This document shows, piece by piece, positions 2,128-31,963 of a DNA stretch of 64,000 bases. Source of the DNA: Clostridioides difficile ATCC 9689 = DSM 1296. Lineage in GTDB: Bacteria > Bacillota > Clostridia > Peptostreptococcales > Peptostreptococcaceae. The notes under the pieces are model-generated. The model was not told the DNA's origin, did no database searches, and saw only the letters and a program-made list of their open reading frames with translations. The stretch lies in assembly GCF_001077535.1 (NCBI RefSeq), contig NZ_CP011968.1:2852001-2916000 (forward strand), written 5' to 3'. The position numbers and the translations under genes were made by a program. Position 1 is the first letter of the stretch. Each line of letters opens with the position of its first letter.

Positions 2128-3903
2128 ATGGCATTAGATGGATTAGTTATACATTCAATAGTCGATGAATTATCATCAAAACTTACAGGTGGAAAAATAG
2201 ATAAGATACATCAACCTGAAGATGATGAGGTAATTTTTAATATAAGAAATAATAAAGAAAATTTTAGATTGGTTTTAAGTGCAAGTGCCTCAAATCCTAG
2301 AGTTTATCTTACAAGTAATTATCAAAAAGAAAACCCTCTAAAAGCGCCTATGTTTTGTATGTTACTTAGAAAATACATACAAGGTGGAAATATAGTAGAA
2401 ATTTCTCAAATAGGTTTTGAAAGAATAATAAAAATAAGCGTTGAATCTTTAGATGAATTAAAAGAAAAGACAGTTAAAAATATTATGATTGAAATTATGG
2501 GAAGACATAGCAACATAATAATAACTCATGGTGAAGAAAATAAAATTATAGATTCTATAAAAAGAGTCCCTTTTAGCATAAGTAGAGTTCGTCAAGTTTT
2601 ACCTGGTCATGATTATTCATTACCACCAGAACAAAACAAACTCAACCCTCTTGATGATATATCTAAGGATTTGTTTATTAAAAACCTAGAGGAATTGGAA
2701 GGACCTATCTTTAAGTCTATATATTCTAGATTTCTAGGTATAAGCCCTATTATAGCTAAAGAAATTTGCTACAGAGCAGGTGTAAATCAAAATGCTATCA
2801 TAAAGGATATATCTGATGAACAATTTGATTCTTTACACAAAGTATTTTGTAATTTATTCAATGATATAAATTCTAACAAATACTCTCCTTGCATTATTAT
2901 AGATAAAAAGGTGGATAAGGTAGTTGATTTCAGTTGTATAAACCTTACATTATTTAGCGATTTATCATATATAAATAAGGATAGTATGTCTCGTATTCTG
3001 GAAGATTTCTATAGAACTAAGGATATTAAAGATAGAATTAATCAACGTTCATCTGATTTAAAGAAGAGTATATCTGTTAAGCTTGATAGACTTTATAATA
3101 AACTTAAAAAACAAGAAGAAGAATTATCAGAATCCGAAAATGCAGACATTTATAAGATAAAAGGAGAATTGATTACTTCATATATTTATATGGTAGAAAA
3201 AGGTATGGAAAGTATTGAAGTTGCTAACTTCTATGATGAAAATTGTAATGATGTAACAATAGAATTAAATAAAAACTTGACACCATCTGAAAATGCTCAA
3301 AAATACTTTAAAAAGTATAACAAAATGAAACATGCTAAAGTCGAGATATCTCATCAAATTTCCTTAAATAAGGAAGAAATAGATTACTTAGAAAACATAA
3401 TTTTAAGTATTGAAAACTGTGAAAATTTAGCTGAATTACAAGATATAAAAGAAGAACTTGCTAAAGTTGGATACATCAAGACTCAAAAGAAAAACAGTAA
3501 AAAGGATACTATCCCATCTACAAAACCTCATGAATTTGTGTCTTCTGATGGATTTAAAATATTGGTTGGTAAAAACAATAAGCAAAATGACTATCTTACA
3601 CTAAGACTTGCTGATAATGATGACTTATGGATGCATACAAAGAATATTCCTGGTTCTCATGTAATAATAAAGTGTGCTGGTAAGGAAGTCCCTGATAATA
3701 CTGTATTTGAAGGAGCTATGCTAGCAGCATTCTTTAGTAAGTCAAAACTTTCTTCTCAGGTGCCTGTAGACTATACTAAGAGAAAAAATGTGAAAAAACC
3801 TAGTGGTTCTAAACCAGGTATGGTTATTTATGAAACTAACAGTACTATTTATGTTACTCCTGAAGAAGAAACAGTAGCCAAGCTTAAGGTTAAATCTGAA
3901 TAA
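2128..3903 (+). CDS. rqcH: RqcH/NFACT ribosome quality-control factor (FbpA family)
   Basis: Bacterial homologue of eukaryotic Rqc2. It binds stalled 50S subunits and recruits tRNA-Ala to add C-terminal alanine tails that mark the nascent chain for degradation. The 591 residues show the NFACT-N domain (about 1-180, starting MALDGLVIHSIVDEL), a helix-hairpin-helix region near 200-230, a coiled-coil pair near 300-440, and the NFACT-R domain (about 470-570) with the DLWMHTKNIPGSHVI motif. The start follows AAAGGGG with good spacing. Older literature calls this family fibronectin-binding protein FbpA, so a surface role is an alternative annotation. It is monocistronic and convergent with the ABC-F gene. 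Confidence 0.9.
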   Translation: MALDGLVIHSIVDELSSKLTGGKIDKIHQPEDDEVIFNIRNNKENFRLVLSASASNPRVYLTSNYQKENPLKAPMFCMLLRKYIQGGNIVEISQIGFERIIKISVESLDELKEKTVKNIMIEIMGRHSNIIITHGEENKIIDSIKRVPFSISRVRQVLPGHDYSLPPEQNKLNPLDDISKDLFIKNLEELEGPIFKSIYSRFLGISPIIAKEICYRAGVNQNAIIKDISDEQFDSLHKVFCNLFNDINSNKYSPCIIIDKKVDKVVDFSCINLTLFSDLSYINKDSMSRILEDFYRTKDIKDRINQRSSDLKKSISVKLDRLYNKLKKQEEELSESENADIYKIKGELITSYIYMVEKGMESIEVANFYDENCNDVTIELNKNLTPSENAQKYFKKYNKMKHAKVEISHQISLNKEEIDYLENIILSIENCENLAELQDIKEELAKVGYIKTQKKNSKKDTIPSTKPHEFVSSDGFKILVGKNNKQNDYLTLRLADNDDLWMHTKNIPGSHVIIKCAGKEVPDNTVFEGAMLAAFFSKSKLSSQVPVDYTKRKNVKKPSGSKPGMVIYETNSTIYVTPEEETVAKLKVKSE

Positions 3904-4117: not shown

Positions 4118-5770
4118 CTAAAAGCTATTTTTTAATTTAGTGATTTGTTTTAGTAATTCATTATATTCTGATTCATACAATTCTTTTTTTAGATTATCTT
4201 TTTCTATAGATAACATAGATATAACAGTTGTAAGTCTATTTTCTAATACTAGAAGATTTTCTTTTTTGATTTGGTTTTCTCTACTAGGAGTTTTTTTATT
4301 TCTGCTAATTATATATTCGTCATAATTACAATCAAACTCCCTTATTTTAGCATCTTTTATCTCTATAATATAGTTACAAATATGTGATACAAATACTCTA
4401 TCATGAGACACTATAAGCATAGTTTTATCAGTATTTATCAGTGCCTTTTCCAGTGCTTCCATAGATTTTATATCTAAGTAATTTGTTGGTTCATCAAATA
4501 CTAAAAAATTATTATCTTCCAATATTATTTTACATAGTGCTATTTTTACCTTTTCTCCACCACTAAGTACTTTTACTTTTTTGTAGACATCATCACCTTT
4601 AAACCCAAATAGGCTTAAGTTTATCCTTATAAAAGATTCATCAAATGAACTATTAACTTTAGTATTGTATAGAACACTCTTTTTCTCATCTAATAAACTT
4701 TGATTTTGGTCAAAATAACCTACTTTTACCTTGTTATTTATTTTTATATTGTCATTTTTATCAGCCAATATTTCTTTTATCAGAGTACTTTTTCCACACC
4801 CATTATCACCTAATAATGCTATCTTTTTACCTCTTTTTATCTTAAAGGAAACATTATCTAACAGGAGCTTATTTTCTAACTTTAGAGTCATATCTTTTAT
4901 CTCTACTAGATTTTTGCTAATTATCTCCATACCATCTTGAATCTTAATGTTCATTTCTTTAGAAACTTTAGGTTTATTCTTTACCTCAAGTTTATCAATT
5001 CTGCTTTTTATAGCCTTCACATTTGAGTCCAACTTTTTCTTATTAGTCTGACCACCCATTTTGTGCAACCTAGCTTCTGAATTACCCATTCTTTTTGGTG
5101 TTTTTCTTATGCCCTCACTTAAAGCTTTTTTATATAAAAGAGCTTTTTCAAGCCTTTTTTTCTCTTTAACATATTCTTGATACTCAAAATCAGCTCTTTT
5201 TACTTCTTCATCTTTTTGCATTAAATAATCAGTGTAATTGCCTTTGTAAGCTTTTAGTTTTCCATCTTCTAGTTCTAATATAGTTGTACATAACTCATCC
5301 AGAAAACGTCTATCATGAGATATTAATAATAATGCTCCCTCATGCCTTTTAAACATATCTTCCAAAACCCCAATGCTTTTTTTATCTAAGTTTGAAGTTG
5401 GCTCATCAGCTATTATGATATTTTTCTTATTACTCAGCGCATCTGCTATTTTTAACTTAACCTTTTCCCCTCCTGATAAGTGTTCTTCAAATTTATCTGG
5501 AGCATTTAAAAGACTCTTCTCCTTACTATGACCACATGTTTCAATATTATTTTCACTCTGACTTATATAAGAATAGCTTTCTGTAAGGTAAGTATATCCT
5601 TCATCAATTTCTATTTCTCCCAATATTGCTTTTAATAATGTTGTTTTTCCTTGACCATTTGAACCAACTAGACCTATTTTGTCATTTTCTAATATTTCAA
5701 GTTTATCTATATCCAAAATTAATTTATCTGCATAATATTTCTTTAAATTCTCTACTTTTACTAACAACAT
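4118..5770 (-). CDS. Antibiotic-resistance type ABC-F ATPase (Vga/Lsa/CplR-like)
   Basis: A soluble twin-ATPase that would bind the ribosomal E site and displace peptidyl-transferase antibiotics (pleuromutilin, lincosamide, streptogramin A classes). The 550-residue form has Walker A GSNGQGKT at residues 36-43, LSGGEK with DEPTSNLD in the first domain, a long charged linker, then GDNGCGKST and a second LSGGEK with DEPTNYLD. There are no membrane segments, as expected for ABC-F. I chose the ATG at 5770 because AAGGAGGG lies just upstream. The frame is open for a further 40 codons (to 5890), so an N-terminal extension is possible. C. difficile is reported to encode an intrinsic factor called CplR; whether this is that gene needs an alignment. 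The leader suggests drug-inducible expression. Confidence 0.85.
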   Translation of the reverse strand: MLLVKVENLKKYYADKLILDIDKLEILENDKIGLVGSNGQGKTTLLKAILGEIEIDEGYTYLTESYSYISQSENNIETCGHSKEKSLLNAPDKFEEHLSGGEKVKLKIADALSNKKNIIIADEPTSNLDKKSIGVLEDMFKRHEGALLLISHDRRFLDELCTTILELEDGKLKAYKGNYTDYLMQKDEEVKRADFEYQEYVKEKKRLEKALLYKKALSEGIRKTPKRMGNSEARLHKMGGQTNKKKLDSNVKAIKSRIDKLEVKNKPKVSKEMNIKIQDGMEIISKNLVEIKDMTLKLENKLLLDNVSFKIKRGKKIALLGDNGCGKSTLIKEILADKNDNIKINNKVKVGYFDQNQSLLDEKKSVLYNTKVNSSFDESFIRINLSLFGFKGDDVYKKVKVLSGGEKVKIALCKIILEDNNFLVFDEPTNYLDIKSMEALEKALINTDKTMLIVSHDRVFVSHICNYIIEIKDAKIREFDCNYDEYIISRNKKTPSRENQIKKENLLVLENRLTTVISMLSIEKDNLKKELYESEYNELLKQITKLKNSF

Positions 5771-5774
5771 AAAA

Positions 5775-5870
5775 AATCCCTCCTTAACACACTTAAATAT
5801 AAGGAGAGATTCTATAAATAGGCATAACAAATAAACGTATAGACTATAATCTACTCTCCTTAATTTAAGC
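5775..5870 (-). promoter_or_regulatory. ABC-F leader: mutually exclusive anti-SD hairpins
   Basis: Minus-strand RNA carries three complementary segments. Segment 1 is AAGGAGAG at 5861-5854. Segment 2 is AATCTCTCCTT at 5811-5801. Segment 3 is AAGGAGGGATT at 5785-5775, which is the Shine-Dalgarno of the ABC-F gene. Segment 2 can pair with all 11 bases of segment 3 (one G-U) and hide the ribosome site, or with 8-9 bases of segment 1 and free it. This is the layout of a translational attenuator. A short in-frame ORF starting MLKLRR overlaps segment 1, and a tiny ORF (MRI then stop) lies further upstream. Confidence 0.65.
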
Positions 5871-5989
5871 ATTGCAAATAAAGCCACCAAAATAGGCTTT
5901 TCAAAAATTACAATACTTTAAATTATAAAAAATAGATTATATTCTCATTGTCCTAGTTACCTTGCCCTTTCTTTCATTTATTTTTAATC

Positions 5990-6018
5990 ATTATATCAAC
6001 ATTAATTACAAATGTCTA
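5990..6018 (-). promoter_or_regulatory. Sigma-A type promoter of the ABC-F gene
   Basis: On the minus strand TAGACA (6018-6013) is separated by exactly 17 bases from TATAAT (5995-5990). Transcription would start near 5983, giving a leader of about 210 bases before the start codon at 5770. Confidence 0.7.
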
Positions 6019-6068
6019 TAGAAAATTAACTAATTTTAGTTATTCAATATAGAACTTATTCTTTAAAT

Positions 6069-7280
6069 TTATTCTTCTTCAACTTTAAAGTCCTGATTAT
6101 TTAAAATTCTGTTTAATACAATTCCAACAATTGCAGCTAAACTAAGACCAGTTATCTTTACTGTACTTGTTATAGGGATTCCAACAGAAATACCTTTATT
6201 AGATAAATATGTTGTTCCAAGACCTATTAATAATATAACTGCTATGATTAATATATTTATTTTACTTTCTACACAAGAACTGTCCCTTATAGTTTTTAAT
6301 CCTACATAAGTTATCATCGAAAATAGCATTATACTAATTCCACCCATAACTGAACCTGGTATACTTTGAAGAAATCCACCAAACTTGCCTACACATGCAA
6401 GCAATATAGCAAATATTGCTGTACGTCTAAGTATTGAAGGGTCATAGTTTTTAGTTATAGCAAGTACTGCTGTATTTTCTCCATAAGTTGTATTGGCTGG
6501 TCCTCCTAAACACCCTGCAACTATAGTCGCAAATCCATCCCCAAGTAATGTTCTATTTAATCCGGGATTTTCTATAAAGTTTTTACCTACTACAGCACCA
6601 TTAGTAGTCATATCTCCTATATGTTCCATAAATACAGCTAATACAACTGGAGATATAATCACAATTGCTCCTAAACTGAACTTAGGAACTGTAAAGTTAG
6701 GTATTGCAAATAAACTTGCTTCTGTAATAGTAGTTATATCTACTAATCTTAATATCAAACAGATTATATACCCAGAAAAAACTGCTATTAATATTCCTAA
6801 TTGTTTTATAAATCCTCTACCAAACTTATTGGTTAAAATTGCTATTGCTAAAGTTATAAATGCTATTACAAAATTGGCTGAAGCCATACTAAAAGCTGTT
6901 GGCAATAAATTTAATCCTATAACTACTATCATAGCTCCTGTAACTTGTGCAGGAAAATATAATTTAATTTTATTTACACCAACTACTTTTACTATAATCG
7001 ACATTATAATATAAATTAATCCTGCTACTATTATACCACCTTGAGCATATGCTAAATCTCCACCATACGCCTCTTTAGCTGCTAGTATAACTGGTATAAA
7101 CGCAAAACTTGAACCTAAAAAGGCAGGTACTTTTCCTTCTGTACAAAAATGAAATATCAATGTACCAACACCAGCACAGAAAATTGCAACTGATGGATTA
7201 AAACCTGTCAAAATGGGAACTAATACTGTCGCTCCAAACATGGCTAATAGATGTTGTAAAGACATTATCGTTTTTTTCAT
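6069..7280 (-). CDS. uraA: Uracil permease, NCS2 family
   Basis: Proton-coupled uracil (or xanthine/uracil) importer of the cytoplasmic membrane. The 403-residue protein is hydrophobic throughout, with the 12-14 membrane spans typical of NCS2. It starts with a short cytoplasmic MKKTIMSLQHLLAMFGATVLV segment; this QHLLAMFGA motif is characteristic of UraA/PyrP proteins. The motif GNPALNTT-like region reads GGPANTTYGENTAVLA (about residue 260), near the substrate site. I chose the ATG at 7280 because GGAGG sits directly upstream; the longer TTG start at 7292 would overlap that ribosome site. It lies 284 bases after pyrR in the same direction and is probably co-regulated with it. Confidence 0.92.
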   Translation of the reverse strand: MKKTIMSLQHLLAMFGATVLVPILTGFNPSVAIFCAGVGTLIFHFCTEGKVPAFLGSSFAFIPVILAAKEAYGGDLAYAQGGIIVAGLIYIIMSIIVKVVGVNKIKLYFPAQVTGAMIVVIGLNLLPTAFSMASANFVIAFITLAIAILTNKFGRGFIKQLGILIAVFSGYIICLILRLVDITTITEASLFAIPNFTVPKFSLGAIVIISPVVLAVFMEHIGDMTTNGAVVGKNFIENPGLNRTLLGDGFATIVAGCLGGPANTTYGENTAVLAITKNYDPSILRRTAIFAILLACVGKFGGFLQSIPGSVMGGISIMLFSMITYVGLKTIRDSSCVESKINILIIAVILLIGLGTTYLSNKGISVGIPITSTVKITGLSLAAIVGIVLNRILNNQDFKVEEE

Positions 7281-7564
7281 AAAAACCTCCAAAATTATTA
7301 TATATAAATAAACCCTCTGTTTAATTAATATCTTTTAATTAATTATCATTCCCTAGATTCTATTTTTTAACCTCTATATACTTATTATATAATTTATCAT
7401 TATTTTACATTTTACGACATCAAAAACTCAAATAAAGGAGAATAAAAACTACATTAAGACTCACATCCATAAAATTATAATATTTATTTTGTGCAATCTA
7501 TGTAAGCTTTATCCTCCTCCCTGACTATTCAATGCTAAGCTTTTTATATAATACTTAAAAATAA

Positions 7565-8139
<575 letters not shown>

Positions 8140-21737: not shown

Positions 21738-21960
21738 AAAAAATCCGTCCTAAATCAATAGGACGGATATATTTTCCGTGGTACCACCTAAATTTATATA
21801 CACTCAAAATTGAATATATATATCTTAATATATGCTATAACGTGCATACACGATATCAAATACTCTGTAATCTTAAATTACATTTCATTTTACTCCTCAA
21901 AGACCCATTCAATAAATACTTTTTATTAAGTTCTCAGCATCCTTAATTCTCTGTGCAAAA
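21738..21960 (-). promoter_or_regulatory. T-box leader with Trp specifier, controlling mtnN-trpS
   Basis: Minus-strand RNA starts stem I with CAGAGAATTAAGGATGCTGAGAA-type sequence. The specifier TGG (21907-21905) lies in GAATGGGTCTTTGAG. The T-box AGGTGGTACCACGG is at 21789-21776. The terminator ATCCGTCC/GGACGGAT (21743-21768) with T tract ends at 21738. Uncharged tRNA-Trp would favour the antiterminator. Confidence 0.93.
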
Positions 21961-22016
21961 ATATATTTATTTACTATTTCTTATCTCAGGATTTAATTTA
22001 TTAATTTCTTTATTTT

Positions 22017-31685: not shown

Positions 31686-31935
31686 AAAAAACTCGCCCCC
31701 TTTAAACCAAAGGGACGAGTTATAAATCGCGTTACCACCCTAATTCTATATGTAAACTAAATACTAGCTACATATAACACTCTAATAGTATAACGGTACT
31801 AACCGGCACAGCTTAGTAGAATTTAATCGTTCAGCCTGCAGCTCAAGAGTGATTTTTATCTTTATAAATTCATTGGTTCTCAGCATACCCAATTCTCTGT
31901 AAAATTATCTAAAGATAAATGTCTCTATCAACGCT
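31686..31935 (-). promoter_or_regulatory. T-box leader with Ile specifier, controlling ileS
   Basis: Minus-strand stem I contains ACAGAGAATTGGG and GCTGAGAACC-type sequence. The specifier ATC is at 31853-31851, in AAAATCACTCTTGAG. The T-box AGGGTGGTAACGCG is at 31741-31728. The terminator stem spans 31691-31720 and is followed by six T. Confidence 0.95.
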
Positions 31936-31963
31936 TTTAAAAATTTATCTGTGTTTATATGAA

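Follow-up and report, generated by a model that had tools for sequence, protein, structure and literature searches.

The window analysed here, a stretch of 64,000 nucleotides from Clostridioides difficile ATCC 9689, carries on its minus strand the gene cplR (4118-5770), whose product, the ARE-ABCF ribosome protection protein CplR, matched profile NF043038 with a whole-protein score of 922.4 bits, above the cut-off of 780. Upstream of cplR and on the same strand (6069-8098) lie an NCS2-family nucleobase permease gene (TIGR00801, above cut-off) and pyrR, and no PyrR-type RNA element was found at the Rfam gathering score within the window. A plus-strand gene convergent with cplR (2128-3903) encodes an RqcH/fibronectin-binding-like protein, a ribosome-rescue relative that gave strong E-values yet fell below the NCBIfam cut-offs. 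Two T-box leaders on the minus strand (31708-31940 and 21756-21996) scored above the Rfam gathering score.

The cplR leader, all of whose elements lie on the minus strand, is preceded by a promoter at 5990-6018 that reads TAGACA-17-TATAAT with TG before the -10 element. The scan gave it a match of 11/12, in line with the good promoter of the original prediction, but a shuffled region would by expectation yield 3.2 promoter-like sites in the same scan, and the match alone is therefore weak evidence. From the published 212-nt 5' region (PMC10201436) the transcript start was placed near 5982. Alignment and folding identified a GAAAGGG box (5965-5971), 17 nt before the start of an upstream ORF (uORF), which pairs with 5824-5816 and closes a 5' hairpin. 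The sensing uORF, ATG AGA ATA TAA (MRI; 5937-5948), was recognized from sequence, alignment and the experiments published for C. difficile 630, and its own Shine-Dalgarno is poor in the window. Folding and alignment also placed strand A (5908-5945), the 5' arm that keeps segment 1 in the OFF state, the full segment 1 (CTTAAATTAAGGAGAG, 5854-5869) and segment 2 as an antiterminator arm (CTCTCCTTATATTTAAG, 5792-5808); CTTAAATTAAGGAGAG and CTCTCCTTATATTTAAG form an antiterminator of 16 pairs with one bulged base. Segments 2 and 3 form a hairpin (5773-5813), supported by folding and by published experiments, that is both terminator and cover for the Shine-Dalgarno of cplR (AAGGAGGG, 5778-5785, within segment 3), and its T run (5771-5776), a mutation of which was tested in PMC10201436, stands immediately before the ATG. 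Sequence and folding agree that a terminator hairpin with a T run hides the cplR Shine-Dalgarno in the window. The leader (5985-5760) folds at -63.5 kcal/mol (z = -6.27), and none of 200 shuffles was as stable. With the Shine-Dalgarno segment held fixed, dinucleotide shuffling of the upstream leader gave an 11-bp partner (G-U allowed) in 126 of 3000 cases, and such a partner together with a third, competing 8-bp segment in 12 of 3000.

These pairings bear directly on the three mutually exclusive segments from which the original prediction had been built. Segment 2 (5811-5801, AATCTCTCCTT) can indeed pair along the full 11 bases of 5785-5775 (AAGGAGGGATT), with one G-U pair, and the stretch CTCTCCTT within it can pair instead with segment 1 at 5861-5854 (AAGGAGAG). 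The latter stretch does pair but is only the 3' half of segment 1, which extends over 5869-5854, so that the antiterminator is twice as long (16 bp) as proposed; and although the three segments are exact, a fourth strand (5945-5908), which in the OFF fold, as predicted, normally sequesters segment 1, had been missed.

The window feature is already known: it is the published drug-sensing switch of cplR, whose leader in C. difficile 630 (CDIF630nc_084) was dissected experimentally by Obana et al. 2023 (PMC10201436). According to that account, the 630 leader is 212 nt long, transcripts stop at the start codon in the absence of drug, a Met-Arg-Ile uORF is held in a 5' hairpin, and the Shine-Dalgarno sits in the terminator hairpin. 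The same source reports that lincomycin and retapamulin induce cplR, which bears out the drug induction that had been proposed from resistance families; that induction is lost when the uORF start codon is changed; that expression becomes constitutive, at more than 10-fold the level of the induced wild type, once the terminator stem is broken; and that breaking the U run (the T run) leaves drug control unaffected. Control is described there as transcription termination as well as translation, so that a scheme of translational attenuation by stalling was right about the stalled ribosome and the Shine-Dalgarno that is hidden or exposed but left out that the 2:3 hairpin also terminates transcription. 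When CplR is made in C. difficile is, on this published evidence (PMC10201436), set by the leader switch. We are almost certain that the window leader is the cplR attenuator, acting on both transcription and translation and sensing ribosome stalling on the MRI uORF. What is added here to the published account is how long the antiterminator is and that it pairs across 16 leaders, together with uORFs beyond MR[I/M], the argument for a kinetic trap, and gene-less copies of the attenuator.

A different sensor had been proposed originally, namely an in-frame upstream ORF that covers segment 1 and runs into cplR without a stop. The frame is in fact open in the window from a TTG at 5890 through cplR, and segment 1 would lie under a ribosome translating it; such a ribosome, however, would favour the OFF hairpin, and the published sensor is the MRI uORF at 5948-5937, which had been overlooked (PMC10201436). 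In all seven other Clostridioides genomes (L063-L069) the frame is closed by an in-frame stop 78-84 nt upstream of the cplR start, against 150 nt in the window; the T run before the ATG also differs, with seven T in each of the seven and six in the window. Because the open frame is not kept in these congeners, the continuity of leader and gene, which had been called unusual, is a chance property of the window sequence; we judged the extension (5771-5890) non-functional from its reading frames and from the congeners, and rejected it as the sensor, a role that is highly improbable. Just as improbable is a second short uORF, MPIYRISPYI (5825-5793), that would lie over segment 2 and serve as a further sensor opening the Shine-Dalgarno of finished transcripts: its frame is present in the window and a ribosome stalled on it would directly block 2:3 pairing, but the ten-codon frame occurs in only two of the eight Clostridioides leaders (window and L063), on which ground it was rejected, and its ATG has no Shine-Dalgarno close before it. 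There is next to no likelihood that the leader is a riboswitch or a protein-binding element that detects a ligand, whether the drug or something else, directly and with no part played by translation, as the strong folding and conservation of the 5' hairpin and the invariant GAAAGGG box might suggest, since induction requires the uORF start codon (PMC10201436), segments 1 and 2 each have two pairings to maintain, which accounts for their conservation, and none of 4227 Rfam models matched at 5700-6100 up to E = 1, a result that led us to reject any known Rfam class for the leader.

Stalling on the MRI uORF, the preferred reading, was examined further among relatives. Of 71 family genomes, 16, one of them the window's own, encode a CplR that is at least 58% identical across almost the entire protein, and the cplR leader was present in all 16; the leader alignments accordingly comprise these 16 leaders, the window and L063-L077. 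The upstream comparison covered 35 loci, in which L062 is the window's own genome; L006, L007, L009-L012, L079, L092-L101, L103 and L104 stood outside the pair counts and the segment-1 motif comparison, and L001-L005, L008, L013-L061, L078, L080-L091 and L102 outside the 35-locus comparison altogether, several of L001-L005 and L008 being the same contigs as G genomes. By eye, several of the order-level loci L093-L101, L103 and L104 had, ahead of the start codon, a T run as well as a stretch rich in pyrimidines and a purine-rich Shine-Dalgarno.

An ATG-two codons-TAA frame with invariant start and stop codons was present in all 16 family leaders, and MRI stood at the same place in all eight Clostridioides leaders. 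The encoded peptides were MRI (nine leaders), MRM (two), MKL (two), MNI, MKR and MNN (one each), so that the published MR[I/M] consensus fits 11 of the 16 and five differ (MKL, MNI, MKR, MNN). The 5' hairpin was paired in 88.7% of 912 cells of the 16-leader alignment, compared with 43-50% when the alignment was slid; 25 cells were changed on both sides (shuffled mean of 11.0, reached in 0 of 500 shuffles), as were nine pairs (5.4 in shuffles; 8 of 500), while further pair types were no more numerous than in shuffles of the 16 leaders (427 of 500). Within this hairpin, the helix between the GAAAGGG box and 5824-5816 was paired in 97.3% of cells, with one pair changed on both sides in five sequences; the box itself was invariant in all 16 leaders and may have a role beyond pairing. 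The competing antiterminator is conserved in these relatives: it was paired in 256 of 256 cells, and its covariation was weak (37 of 500 shuffles) because it hardly varies. The conserved ATTTAAG of the terminator loop is explained by its being part of the antiterminator.

A switch built from these elements would operate as follows. In the absence of drug, ribosomes would quit MRI at once and strand A would keep segment 1, leaving segment 2 to pair with segment 3 in a hairpin that would end transcription at the cplR start codon; in transcripts escaping termination, the same 2:3 hairpin would hide the Shine-Dalgarno. With drug present, a ribosome stalled on MRI would cover the base of strand A, and segment 1, thus freed, would capture segment 2 over 16 bp as segment 2 is made, so that the terminator would fail and the Shine-Dalgarno would remain free. 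Equilibrium folding of the finished window leader failed to show such switching, and growing transcripts were therefore folded at five lengths, either with no ribosome or with one of three footprints on the uORF, each of which began 12 nt ahead of the start codon and ended 18, 24 or 30 nt past the first base of that codon. Without a ribosome, predicted 1:2 pairing was 0.00 in all 16 leaders at every length. With the smallest footprint and the transcript ending 9 nt past segment 2, it was 0.89-0.99 in all eight Clostridioides leaders and 0.97-1.00 in L071, L073 and L074, and five of the 16 leaders did not switch (L070, 0.28; L072, 0.14; L075, 0.01; L076, 0.01; L077, 0.07); with the largest footprint at the same transcript end it reached 0.90 in 15 of 16, L070 staying at 0.17. 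In the finished leader, no footprint tested raised predicted 1:2 pairing above 0.01 in 14 of the 16, the exceptions being L071 and L073, and for this reason simple equilibrium folding fails to reproduce the switch. In the window, the calculated cost of forcing the 1:2 pairing is 26.5 kcal/mol for the ribosome-free leader and about 10 kcal/mol once a ribosome is in place. Because the OFF fold of the finished window leader wins in these calculations even with a ribosome on the uORF, we infer that the ON state is probably a kinetic trap set during transcription, which would fit the published observation that, even when induced, the wild-type leader gives less than a tenth of the expression seen once the terminator stem is broken (PMC10201436).

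To locate further copies, a covariance model, R1, was built from the uORF-to-segment-1 part of the 16 leaders. R1 found one copy in the window's genome; among 398 genomes drawn from the phylum only the window's own matched, and in the order it matched 21 places in 18 of 297 genomes. Sixteen of these places were the cplR leaders, as expected by construction since R1 was built from them, and five were not (L118, L119, L122, L124 and L125). Of the 38 order genomes with a CplR match at E <= 1e-120, R1, run with strict filters, missed the remaining 22. We set L122 (genome G002) aside, a weak match (E = 0.002) that looks like an ordinary short hairpin. At L119 (1501-1800, genome G051) neither the GAAAGGG box nor the uORF start is present, and a few codons resembling the cplR start are followed by a GNAT acetyltransferase gene; the best CplR match in that genome is 36% identical, and L119 looks like a relic of a cplR leader.

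The remaining three, L118 (1414-1677, minus strand), L124 (1429-1700, plus strand) and L125 (1409-1676, minus strand), are R1 matches that represent second, gene-less copies of the attenuator in three genomes of one genus, g8, which belongs to the same family as C. difficile; two of five g8 genomes examined had no R1 match. TAGACA-17-TATAAT precedes all three (found by the scan for L118 and L124 and by eye for L125), and each copy has the GAAAGGG box, an ATG-AAY-ATA-TAA uORF (MNI), segment 1, segment 2 and a hairpin with a T run; strand A, the antiterminator and the terminator are likewise kept in all three. Unlike in the cplR leaders, no start codon follows the T run, and no ORF of at least 80 codons lies downstream on the same strand. 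The copies are preceded on their own strand by a Lit-like gene (PF07314 in L118), and a convergent gene (PF04071, zf-like, in L118) ends 26-53 nt beyond the T run. From promoter to terminator the three copies are 72-92% identical in blocks of 50 alignment columns, against 0-36% in the adjoining upstream sequence (partly gaps) and 30-58% in the adjoining downstream sequence, and the convergent gene is 82-90% identical; since that gene is equally conserved, conservation of the copies is roughly that of the neighbouring gene and no higher. Folded before segment 3 is made, they gave predicted 1:2 pairing of 0.00 without a ribosome and 0.77-0.96 with the smallest footprint, and the finished RNA gave 0.00. 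The copies may still function as a non-coding switch, or they may be recent relics left behind by a gene that was lost. It is conceivable, if rather doubtful, that each works as an RNA switch on its own, operated by ribosomes that stall on the MNI uORF, with read-through that would run antisense into the convergent PF04071 gene or with a short RNA that would act in trans. If functional, they would be a drug-sensing attenuator serving as a non-coding RNA rather than as the leader of a gene. Literature searching, directed mostly at cplR and for the rest at attenuators of this kind, turned up no account of them by title or abstract; they alone look new and merit attention.

In erm-type translational attenuators, a stalled ribosome frees a hidden Shine-Dalgarno by way of competing hairpins. 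The cplR leader shares with them the stalled ribosome, the competing hairpins and the freeing of the Shine-Dalgarno, and differs in that its hairpin doubles as an intrinsic terminator and its uORF has three codons. The leaders of vmlR, vmlR2, lsaA and lmo0919/vgaL also belong to ARE-ABCF genes and are reported to combine very short uORFs (MIN in vmlR, MK[L/Q] in vmlR2, MAGN in lsaA) with premature termination (PMC10201436); the uORF consensus of this group differs from that of cplR, and the likeness is drawn from the published description rather than from sequence. Set against the cplR leader of C. difficile 630, as far as the available parts of that account describe it, the window leader differs in no point of anatomy: the gene, the MRI uORF, the 5' hairpin, the antiterminator, the terminator over the Shine-Dalgarno and the length of 212 nt are the same.
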